Under the pieces are notes generated by a model. It ran no database searches. It worked only from the letters and a program-made list of their open reading frames with translations, and was not told the DNA's origin. Shown here in pieces: positions 1-64,000 of a DNA stretch of 64,000 nucleotides (position 1 is the first letter of the stretch; each line of letters opens with the position of its first letter). This DNA is from Halichondria panicea (lineage: Eukaryota > Porifera > Demospongiae > Suberitida > Halichondriidae): the NCBI RefSeq assembly GCF_963675165.1, contig NC_087381.1, positions 7,348,419 through 7,412,418 of the forward strand. Reading direction: 5' to 3'. Made by a program: the position numbers and the translations under genes.

Positions 1-4
1 TTAC

Positions 5-698
5 CAAGGGCAGAACCGTCCTCTGTAGCAAAGTTAACAATGACATCATGCCTGAGCTCACCCATGAGAACGTTCACAAACAGCTGTACGTTGTCGTCCA
101 CATCTTCAGTAGCTTGGTACACAGTCTGAGTGAAACCAATCACCACTCCTGCACAGGGTCGACAATGTATGACATTTTATGCAGCTAGATGATTCAAAAT
201 ACACAATCAATTGAAGCTATAGCCTCTTATTATTTTGTAAGTCATTGTTGTCTCTACATACCTATACTAAACACATTTGGGTAACACTGTGTGGTAAAAC
301 CTCCCAGTATTGGATACCTCCGAATAACAGACAAACCTCGTTCACTGACTTCACTATTTGGAGGTTCCACTGTATGGTCGGTCATGCATGTAAAGCAAAA
401 CTTAGATAAACCTGCTAGACATTTACCTATGCACTGGAAGCATTGACCACCATCATTGTAATACAGTCCTGCATTATTATTGACACAACAGTCCTCAGCA
501 TTGGAAGAAGGTCCCCCCACAACAAGAGTAGCACAGCCAGGATCAGTGAAGCATCCAGTGAATTGGGCCTGAGCTGCAAAGATAATTTATAGCTCTTTTA
601 GTAAAGAGCTATAATTATGAGCATGCCTTACCAGTGGAAGTGAGCAAGGTGATCACTGTCATTAATAGTGTCAATAGGAGTTGATGTGAAACTCCCAT
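5..698 (-). CDS. Gene 1, 5' part: signal peptide, Cys-rich exon, Calx-beta half (partial)
   Basis: Three exons read on the minus strand: 632-698 (signal peptide beginning MGVSHQLLLTLL), 427-573 (Cys-rich module with GGPSSNAEDCCVNNNAG and a final QCFQCIG) and 5-148 (first half of a Calx-beta domain, starting GVVIGFTQTVY and ending GSALG). All three boundaries have GT/AG consensus and are phase 1; the donor of exon 3 occupies positions 1-4, so the gene continues past the left edge. Unlike genes 2-5, the Cys-rich exon is followed directly by this Calx-beta half and not by the module beginning VYGFGSD, so gene 1 is a divergent member or has lost an exon. It starts only about 270 bp downstream of the gene 2 stop codon on the same strand. 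No frame break is visible. Extracellular location follows from the signal peptide. Confidence 0.75.
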
Positions 699-966
699 CC
701 TGTCTTTGATTGTGCTCCTGATAGATCTAGATCTATACTGTATGTGGAAGCAATTCTACATCTATTAGTTAAAGCCTACTGTACTGGCTCCATAGTTACT
801 GTTTAATTGCTTTAACTTTAATCTTGTCATGTACAGGAAATTACTTAGCCTTAATTAATAATTATGGTTTTTTTCTGGATGATAATAATTATAAAGTATC
901 AGTTCACAACTAGATCTACATCTGTTTCAATGTCCTGTACATTATATGAATTCGAAGTAACTGGTT

Positions 967-3900
967 TTAATTATTATCGTTCATGGGGACTGTCACAGGC
1001 CCATAAGCCTCACAGGGTGTTAGTTTAAACTGCACCTCTGAAGCACCCTCCCCTGCTGTAGATGGTTGAGGATTTTCAGTGGAAGTTTCGGAATTTCCTA
1101 CACTTATATAATCATAGTCATGATCAGGAAGCTCATCAGCAACATCAGGCCTCCTGCATGCATGCAAGGTGAGGGAGATTAGCACAGCATCAGCAATACA
1201 AGTACTATAGAGAAACTTAGCAATGAACTGATAAACTCACATATCTGGTGGACTACTTTCATTGATGCTCGAGGTCTGTGATTTATATTTCCGATACTTC
1301 AGAGCAACCAGCAAAATGACGACCACCAAGAGAGCAACAATGAGAGTCAATGATCCAATCACAATGCCAATCACAGCACCTTCACTCAGTAGTAAAGGAG
1401 CTGCAATAGATTAATGGTATAAAATAATAGTCTTAAGTACTGCCTTGAGTCATAGATATAAAAAGGGAGTCGAGAGGGATGGGAAACGGAGCAAGTGCGC
1501 ACAATCACTTCTGTGAAAGTTGATCCGCGTTTCGCCTCTAGAAATTCCGCCAATCCAGCGGGAAATGTTATTACTATCATTCACAGCTCCCCACTGGGAC
1601 TCTTAGTCCTGTGCTGAGCATCCACGCCTACCGTGCATCATATAGAAGCGTTGTGCATCTCACTAAGAGCTTGAAAACTTTCAAAGGCAGTTTTTTTTAG
1701 TGTTGTATTATCGTTTCGGCTCTATTGTGGCTTTGTGTACCTTCTAAGAGGCTGTGACTACAGCCCAAAATATTAATGATTCCCTCTTTCTCAATTAAGT
1801 AGCTGGACATTGTATGCAAGTAAAATCAAAGCCACTTGGCTTTAGGTTGGTAAGTAATGTTCATTTTTTTCTTAGTAAGCTAGTTTTTAAAAGCAGACTT
1901 TTTGTGTACCCATTTAGAAAGTTACATCAATGATTGAATGTAGATAGATAAACTTGTCTCTTTGTATTCATTGGGTTCATCGTATCGGCACAGTAATTTA
2001 CGACAGAACTTTGTTACATTTTCATACTTCTCTATCATGTCTGTGACTGTAATGGAATACTCAACGGTACAGACAGAGCTCCTCTCAAGAATTTTCCTGT
2101 CCAAGCTGCTTTTTACTGCTTGGAGGGGTCTCACTAACTATTGCTGCTACCTTGTTGTGACTGTTCCACTAGCCATTGCTAATACATGGAGCTCAGTAGC
2201 TAGTTTATAGCCTAGTACTAGCTAAAAGCATGGGCTGGAGGAAATAAAGAAGAAAACATTGACCGAAACGCGGATCGTCAATGCTATTTACGTAGCGTTT
2301 CCCATCCCTCTCCCTTCTTATATCTATGTTTGAGCTAAAAACATACACGTAGACATATACATGTTCCCTATATTCACGAATTGTTTTGCTAGAAGGATTA
2401 AAATTGAAATTCATATCTTAGCTTGCAATTAATTTTTTTGCTGCGTGCATGTTTCAGATGTACAATATATGCATGCCCAAGTCTGAGCGCAGTGATGCTG
2501 TTATAATTATTACAAGCTTGAGGGAGCAATAATCTTTACGTATCGCAGCACACCTTCTTGTGCACACTGAAGAGGACTAGCTTCCGCCCACACTCCATAT
2601 TCACATGTCCTTATCTCATATCCTTGAAGCTGGAACCCTTCATCACAGGTGTACGTAGCAACTGTCCTATGTGGTCCTTCAGACACATTGTAGATGATCA
2701 TTCCATTAACGAGTGGTGGAAGATGATTACACAAAGCTGTGATCACATTATGTGATTAGCAATCAGCATATGTTTTCACAACTTACGGACACATTGTGGT
2801 TCTTGGCCAGTCCACGCCCACACTGTTCTACTTCCTGCCTCTCCAGTGGTACAGTTCCTCTCATTATCCCTATCTAGGAAGAACCCATCCTCACACGTGT
2901 ACATTGCTATGGTTCCCAGGAAAGAGATGCCAATGTGATACAAGATTGATCCATTCCCAGGAGGTAGCAGCTCTTCACACTCTAAACCTGCATGAATGCT
3001 CTTAGTCTACTTTCTATTATATCAAGTTTAAAACATTAGCAGCTTTCATCTCACAAGTTAAGGAACAACTTACGTTGACACGTTGGTGGTAATCCATCGA
3101 AAGTGCTGTCACTTTGACAAACTCTGATCACGTTTCCGATAAGAACGAATCCAGGGAAACAGATGTGCTCAGCGTTAGTTCCCTCAAGGTATGGAGCCGT
3201 TGTGTCAGGTGAGTACTCAATACGACCATTAATAAGCAATTCCAACTCTTGACAGATAACTATGAAGGTCGTATATCAATTGCAAAAAATAATATTATGC
3301 GTGCCCAAGATTCTATTACACGTCCTCTCAAATATGCTATGTCCTTCAACTACTATTATAAGCTACTAGTAAAATTAATAATTATCATAGTACATGTACA
3401 TACCATCGTCATTGATAATGGTAGCATTGGCATTTCCTGGACTCAGGGACACTTTCACCCCACTAATGATGGTTAATGTGCCTTGAAACATTTCATTATT
3501 CTCAATTATTGGGTCATTAATCAATTCAACTGGAATCTGAATGCTTTGCATGCCTATGCTCAGAATGATTGGCATGTTGATAATTGAAGTGTAGTCCAGA
3601 CCAGCCATTGCAGCAAAATCTGTGTGTGTGTGTGTGTGTGTGTGTGTGTGTGTGTGTGTGTGTGTGTGTGTGTGTGTGTGTGTGTGTGTGTGTGTGTGTG
3701 TGTGTGTGTGTGTGTGTGTGTGTGTGTGTGTGTGTGTGTGTGTGTGTGTGTGTGTGTGTGTGTGTGTGTGTGTGTGTGTGTGTGTGTGTGTGTGTGTGTG
3801 TGTGTGTGTGTGTGTGTGTGTGTGTGTGTGTGTGTGTGTGTGTGTGTGTGTGTGTGTGTGTGTGTGTGTGTGTGTGTGTGTGTGTGTGTGTGTGTGTGTG

Positions 3901-62828: not shown

Positions 62829-63578
62829 CAGTGGCGTATCCAGCTAGGGGCTCAGGGTGCTCAAGCACCCCCCTAAGCTTAACATTAATTACTGCAACTT
62901 ACTGGATAGCTGGGAGCTGAGCCTGAGCTTGCACTACAGAGCTAGCTAGAGCTCGCAGAAGAGTTTTATACTGTTGGAGACCACACCCTTCAGATATCCA
63001 AGTTTCCTGAGCATGCGTACTGTGACTTATTAATACCACAAAAATTAATAGTACAAGCCAAGAGTCTGCATCAGGAGGTTGTTCCCTGTCAGTGTCTATA
63101 TAATTCAGAAAGCACCAGCAGAGGACTAGAAACTAGACTACGAGGTAGAGGACAAAGAATCTTAAACAATGGTTTTGATACAGATTTTCTTGGTGATATA
63201 CATGTAGTATAATTATTGTGCACTCTGCCTGTCACTAGCTGCTCAGCAGAGAGGCCGTCTTTCAGTGGTCTGAAGAGAATAAAGACAGCAGTACAATCAC
63301 ACACAGAACGATCGACTAACTGGACTAACTTCTACACATACACCATAACATACCTGTAGATAGTGATAATAGCTATAGAGATGAGTCAATTGTAGCATAT
63401 AATACTCTATCTATGGTTGTAGGCAATGCATGGTAGAGTTGATATCATTGTGACTGTTCTTTATCAAGGTGTCGCAGTAGAGGTGGGTGTGGCTTCCGGT
63501 GCGTGGGCTGACCTCAAAAATTTCGCGCTGTCGCGCGACCTGAGCACTCTCCTACTGATATTCCTAGAAACGCCACTG
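62829..63578. mobile_element. hAT-like MITE d (750 bp)
   Basis: Starts CAGTGGCGTATCCAG, ends TAGAAACGCCACTG, flanked by AAAGG at 62,824-62,828 and 63,579-63,583. Internal TTTCGCGCTGTCGCGCGAC is shared with MITEs b and c. It sits inside gene 5. Confidence 0.7.
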
Positions 63579-63703
63579 AAAGGGGTATATAATTATAGTG
63601 AGTGAATACTAATGGTGGATGATGATGTATAATTTTTGTCCAGCATGTTACAGGACTGTTCCCTTGATTCTGCTTATGTATTATTATAACGTACTTCTTT
63701 CAG

Positions 63704-64000
63704 TGGTTGAGTGTCTTCTTCATTCTCAATGGTAGCATTTCCTATTCTCCTGACATGGATGCCACTTACAGCTGTGACACTGGATACTTCTTGGATGTGT
63801 CTCAGGGTAGCAGAGTGAGAACTTGCACGTATAATTATGATCCAATAGACTCAATGGGAGTGTGGAGTGGACAGGAGCCTCGCTGTGTTAGTACGTCATT
63901 GAAATAATTATACTAAAAAGATAACTACGAGCGTTCATTGATGTTGTATGCAAGTATACAGTGTGAAGACCTGTCACCTCTTGGGAATGGATCCATCTTG
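63704..64000 (+). pseudogene. Gene 5, CCP exons at the right edge (partial)
   Basis: 63704-63890 is a CCP exon (NGSISYSPDMDATYSCDTGYF ... VWSGQEPRCV in pieces) with an acceptor TTTCAG and donor GTACGT; its first codons (VECLL) are one frame off from the rest. The next CCP starts near 63,955 (QCEDLSPLGNGSIL) and runs off the window; its acceptor has changed from GCAGG to GCAAG compared with pseudogene L, moving the junction by one base. It probably belongs to gene 5, continuing the gene 2-like order, and is non-functional. Confidence 0.65.

Follow-up and report, generated by a model that had tools for sequence, protein, structure and literature searches.

A tandem gene cluster in a probable demosponge predicted to place secreted and membrane proteins on one shared, variable head

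Background

The molecules by which sponges discriminate self from non-self, above all the receptor for the aggregation factor, are to our knowledge long-standing unknowns. Aggregation factors themselves reportedly combine Calx-beta, VW and Wreath domains, as Grice and colleagues are said to have described in 2017. We analyzed a 64,000-nucleotide stretch of DNA (hereafter the window; contig C5, NC_087381.1:7348419-7412418, of an assembly of 131.46 Mb in 39 contigs) that carries part of a cluster of duplicated genes. These are predicted to encode secreted and cell-surface proteins on the same variable outer part, in a layout that resembles known self/non-self recognition loci.

Sponge aggregation factors are the family nearest to this cluster. 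A preliminary description of the window had drawn that comparison, which is apt in that the host is probably a demosponge; the likeness also takes in clustered Calx-beta genes and shuffled domains, which are reported for aggregation-factor genes. The cluster differs from them in having CCPs, a class with a transmembrane (TM) segment and tail, and ITIH-C-like ends, and in lacking VWD. By analogy, its nearest working parallel is the fuhc locus of Botryllus, for which the available part of the source describes adjacent secreted and membrane genes (fuhc-sec and fuhc-tm), fester co-receptors and receptor tails with Y-x-x-I/L/V (PMC12065747). Side-by-side secreted and membrane genes, multigene receptors and tails of this kind are common to both loci, whereas the Botryllus system has Ig, EGF and sushi ectodomains, belongs to a chordate, has a proven role in allorecognition (PMC12065747) and, as far as seen, is not homologous. 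Unlike in the sponge cluster, one head common to both forms is not described in that part of the source, and the open literature that we searched yielded no description of such a shared-head architecture of secreted and membrane genes.

Results

Two gene classes share a head and differ in their ends. The cysteine-rich (Cys) exon, nine Calx-type exons and the first CCP exon are common to both, all in phase 1, and the sizes of these head exons agree within a few codons, with phase-1 borders, among gene 1 (membrane class, minus strand, about 1.0-16.7 kb), gene 2 (secreted class, minus strand, 19.7-31.0 kb) and gene 4 (secreted class, plus strand, 47.9-58.6 kb). The preliminary description, whose genes 2, 3, 4 and 5 are matched to our models by assumption, had proposed that membrane and secreted genes here form one complex on a common ectodomain, and the gene structures bear this out. 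Its equal exon boundaries hold for the Cys, Calx and first CCP exons but not for the signal exon, which it had wrongly taken as shared: genes 2 and 4 begin with MERLLLSLAIF and gene 1 with MRVLNQLVDLL.

Signal exon A (M[EG]RLLLSLAIF) is present in all four genes with ITIH-C-like ends, namely genes 2 and 4 and two cluster units, U10 and U12, that lie outside the window, as do U1, U4, U7 and U9. Further copies are found at U1 and in the mosaic unit U7, and the seventh is an orphan. Signal exon B (MGVSNQLLLTL-like) occurs in three of the five TM genes (gene 1, U9 and gene 5, where it is a relic) and in units without an assigned end; U1 is the one TM gene with signal A, and for U4 neither signal exon was found. 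All four ITIH-C-like-ended genes carry two such ends each, which may be used as alternatives, and separate stops are seen in gene 4. U1, which joins signal A and secreted-type CCPs to a TM tail, is a natural recombinant. Decayed ITIH-C-like relics follow six of the ten tail-bearing places in the cluster (at 7.314, 7.341, 7.342, 7.382, 7.388 and 7.413 Mb) and suggest that much of the membrane class descends from an ITIH-C-ended ancestor.

Related units span about 190 kb (C5:7.237-7.430 Mb), so that the cluster extends past the window on both sides, and self-comparison reveals repeated blocks across the window. Secreted and membrane genes are adjacent at genes 1 and 2 and again at U9 and U10. 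A genome search with the Cys exon and unit 1 of the head recovered 65 pieces, all on C5. The clustering, pseudogenes and inversion noted earlier are all present, the last as a pair at 32.5-36.7 kb against 37.5-40.5 kb. Open in the exons found are U12 (11 CCPs), U1 and U4; U10 lacks CCPs and its Calx 5 is truncated, and U9 is broken in Calx 5b and in the tail. At C5:7290226-7307060 lie mosaic units in which pairs of Cys and Calx 1 are repeated, exon 4b is directly followed at two sites by a divergent Cys/Calx 1 variant (42-54%), and Calx 4-5 is present about three times over.

The domains of the head were named with unequal confidence. Of the five Calx-beta domains described earlier, units 4 and 5 of gene 4 pass Pfam and units 1-3 do not (unit 2, E 0.12; units 1 and 3, no match). 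Profile comparison did not join units 1-3 to units 4-5, and the Calx name is applied to the former tentatively, on length, exon split and acidic end only. Calx unit 1 consists of two exons around a short phase-1 intron that aligns across copies and, at 63 nt, reads in frame in gene 4; frameshifts in most copies had been considered and were rejected, since the break is this intron. The seven Sushi/CCP repeats of gene 4 are recognized at 2.4e-36, and CCP number in the secreted class ranges from 0 to 11.

The ITIH-C-like end named in the preliminary description stands as a weak similarity that remains below the Pfam cut-off: four of six members match ITI_HC_C with E no higher than 1, the best at 0.002, and the copy shown reaches 13.5 bits where the cut-off is 27. 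A genome search with the Pfam ITI_HC_C model at E<=0.001 gave no match. ITIH proteins carry a G-D-P motif near the start of this module, and the end module has G-D-P at a like position; all 14 aligned copies, several of them near-identical, keep G-D-P-L. In an end-module alignment that includes second-exon rows, the first residues of three rows remain misplaced. In contrast to ITIH heavy chains, no VIT domain was found on C5 or C1, the eight genome matches being on C13, C9, C16 and C12. Exon pieces of the end module number 90 in the genome, distributed over C5, C1 and C14, and the module is found beyond Calx arrays as well; at the one C1 locus that was read, NIDO, VWD and EGF exons lie upstream of it and may form one gene with it. 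A single-sequence search of the end module against solved structures returned two photosystem chains (E 0.08-0.1), which were judged chance matches, and its profile gave no match. AlphaFold models were poor (mean confidence, pLDDT, of 52.6 for Calx unit 3 and 51.5 for the end module), and no fold is claimed.

Head DNA (units 1-4) was compared among nine genes (36 pairs). Heads are nearly as similar across the classes (85.9% identity) as inside them, where identity is 87.9% for the secreted class and 86.7% for the TM class once U1 is set aside. Secreted heads as one clade are rejected (approximately unbiased test, p-AU 0.0077) because the U1 head groups with that of secreted U12 at 99/97. End type requires two changes on the tree, a value that 65 to 78 of 500 label shuffles also reach. 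A run test found long shared runs in five of the 36 pairs, four between classes (two with U1) and one within, at a Bonferroni p of 0.018, which is the floor of 2000 shuffles and may be inflated by conserved blocks. Some exchange of pieces between the classes has taken place.

Among the four secreted-class genes, with three genes only for some exons, the ratio of nonsynonymous to synonymous change (pN/pS) ranges over 0.32-1.26 in head exons; it is 0.40 in CCP1 and 0.11-0.27 in the ends. A wider set of stop-free copies points the same way (1.04 for the Cys exon, 0.11-0.30 for the ends), with high values also for the TM-class CCPs and tail (0.61-0.76). Variation tends to be greater in the heads than in the ends, with some overlap of intervals, and purifying selection is clear for the ends and some head exons.

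The TM segment plus tail was recovered in 47 pieces at E<=2.3e-4, 45 on C5 and two on C6. On C5 there are about ten such places in the cluster and about ten more between 5.87 and 6.66 Mb. Three of the latter were read, and they carry the same TM and tail module on other heads: IgGFc-binding exons (2.5e-35 and 1e-37) with CCPs in two, and Calx-like, CCP and Ig-like exons in the third, where the Ig match is below the Pfam cut-off. Eleven of the 12 tails read contain Y-D-[YF]-I, and six of the 12 a later Y-x-x-V.

Discussion

A single head carried by two classes whose signal exons and ends are distinct is consistent with secreted and membrane proteins that act as partners in adhesion or recognition. 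We tentatively regard the cluster as a demosponge tandem complex in which two gene classes on one extracellular head would provide a secreted matrix form and a membrane receptor, a reading to which we give slightly less than an even chance; a role in adhesion or recognition is plausible but unproven. The secreted class, with signal A, the Cys module, five Calx-type units, 0 to 11 CCPs and one of two ITIH-C-like ends, would most likely reside in the extracellular matrix, held there by the end module with its invariant G-D-P-L. The membrane class, mostly with signal B and with the same head, CCPs, TM segment and a tail bearing Y-x-x-I/V, would most likely serve as a surface receptor or co-receptor for it. 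Duplication and exchange may keep heads related across the classes while copies vary, and contact between like heads could bring tailed molecules together and set off a signal via the tail tyrosines. The class-specific signal exons and ends, the exchange across classes and the recurrence of the tail on the same chromosome lend extra support to an interpretation as a recognition complex.

Several results weigh against this interpretation. Pfam accepts Calx-beta in two of the five gene 4 units, and none of the 21 genome VWD matches falls in the cluster (VWA was not searched for). Only two of six inner branches of the head tree are well supported, and once U1 is left out the four secreted heads form a group (82/96); the proposition that heads do not follow end type was rejected as a tree result, since it rests on U1. 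To the possible inflation of the run test must be added that no exon among the four secreted-class genes has a pN/pS interval above 1, as positive selection would give, and that the intervals of several head exons overlap those of the ends (Calx 1b 0.13-0.67, end exon 1a 0.13-0.54). The immunoreceptor tyrosine-based inhibition motif (ITIM) is [SIVL]xYxx[ILV], and by eye this strict form is absent from the 12 tails, which have only the looser Y-x-x-I/V core.

Many of the units are broken, head pN/pS is below or near 1, and large families with the same end module exist elsewhere on C5 and C1, all of which would agree with an ordinary lineage-specific expansion of matrix or adhesion genes, in which tandem copies, relaxed constraint and conversion as a by-product of the tandem arrangement involve no recognition role. 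We consider this somewhat unlikely, in that both classes, with their distinct signal exons and ends, stay open on the same head, and ends and some head exons are under purifying selection. The CCP-rich architecture, and a tail common to genes with IgGFc-binding or Ig-like exons (the three read of about ten further places), could instead point to microbe-facing immunity, with surface receptors for microbial ligands and soluble, opsonin-like forms of the same head; the Ig matches are below Pfam cut-offs, however, and we think this improbable.

That the genes are a divergent set of true aggregation-factor genes seems less probable again, indeed very unlikely. The probable demosponge host and the clustered Calx-beta genes speak for it, as does the occurrence of the end module beyond Calx arrays and downstream of a VWD exon at the C1 locus, but the cluster itself is without VWD matches, and CCPs and TM tails fall outside the definition of aggregation factors given above.

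The reading as a two-class complex has a bolder form, which we hold to be unlikely: a sponge recognition supergene on one chromosome, in which matrix-held ligands and tyrosine-tailed receptors would be made from the same exchanged, variable head, each haplotype would have ligand and receptor heads that match, and the tail would also be supplied to IgGFc-binding and Ig-like receptors. If true, such a supergene would provide the receptor side of sponge self-recognition, which has been missing. The locus offers concrete candidates on one head, with open secreted genes (gene 4, U12) and open membrane genes (gene 1, U1, U4), and a receptor tail that is reused on other heads; these candidates can be typed, expressed and assayed for binding.

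Gene models in the window

From the left, signal exon B (632-698) and a Cys exon (427-573) on the minus strand (427-698) belong to a unit that leaves the window, with no Calx exons found close by. Gene 1 (969-16745, minus) is open in all exons: signal exon B at 16679-16745, Cys at 16461-16604, Calx exons from 12895 down to 10821 and at 3619-3404, three CCPs from 3259 down to 2554, a TM exon at about 1254-1379 and the tail at about 970-1236. It thus has the exon set of gene 4 up to the first CCP, followed by two other CCPs, TM and tail. Its 7.2-kb intron between Calx 5a and 5b contains an insertion (4070-9785, minus) with an open reading frame for reverse transcriptase and GIY-YIG (5435-7408), which we take to be a Penelope-type element. 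Two direct repeats of 1173 bp, 100% identical, flank the frame (4070-5242 and 8613-9785); they also match the pseudogene pair at 34.7-37.2 kb and are therefore not simply the element's own ends.

A relic at 17785-18339 comprises a Cys exon (plus, 17785-17931) and a signal-B-like stretch (minus, 18261-18339). Gene 2 (19692-31046, minus) has signal exon A at 30995-31046, Cys at 30618-30761, Calx exons from 28552 down to 26024, four CCPs from 25802 down to 24627, and ITIH-C-like ends from 22674 to about 21700 and from 21451 to about 19695; apart from one frame-broken exon, Calx 4a (26934-27098), it matches gene 4, with four CCPs. The inverted pair consists of a membrane-class pseudogene (32444-36689, minus) with Calx 5 remnants, CCPs, TM, tail and a decayed ITIH-C-like relic (about 32.5-32.8 kb), and a partner (37512-40468, plus) with Calx 5b, CCPs, TM, tail and a similar relic (about 40.3-40.45 kb). 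A retroelement integrase relic (H2C2 and rve; 40706-42207, minus) lies beside it.

Gene 4 (47920-58613, plus) was fully modelled and is open throughout, with signal exon A at 47920-47971, Cys at 50018-50164, nine Calx-type exons in five units at 50698-53374 and seven CCP exons at 53666-56161. Its ends lie at 56316-56888 and 56957-57294, and at 57561-58118 and 58282-58613. Its internal exons are free of stops, are of phase 1-1 and are bordered by AG and GT; both end pairs close with a stop of their own after a last Cys. CA repeats, which can steer splicing, abut the acceptors of Calx exon 5b (53150-53160) and of the first ITIH-C-like exon (56305-56316), and long CA tracts adjoin Calx exons elsewhere too. 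Gene 5 (59191-64000, plus), with a signal-B-like stretch at 59191-59351, Cys from 59378, Calx at 60271-62128 and CCPs from 63.7 kb, is a membrane-class pseudogene. The preliminary description had counted a TM gene here (from 59.2 kb); TM and tail do exist, past the window at C5:7413074-7413512, but several exons, Calx exons included, contain stops.

Other loci in the genome

An array at C2:272025-277757 has at least 11 strong Calx-beta matches, one about every 406 bp, which far exceed the matches of the window in strength, and is another candidate aggregation-factor-like gene. Six Calx-beta matches at C15:834852-867280 lie mostly in long open frames (265-486 codons), whereas the C5 genes are split into many exons. 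A COX1 fragment on C1 is readable only with TGA as Trp, as would suit a sponge or a cnidarian. Silicatein is linked to demosponges, and all three genome matches to a silicatein-type active-site pattern fall on C2 inside an 11-kb interval, whereas a reversed control gave none; one of these loci, read by eye exon by exon, is cathepsin-L-like and has Ser in place of the catalytic Cys, so that the host is probably a demosponge.

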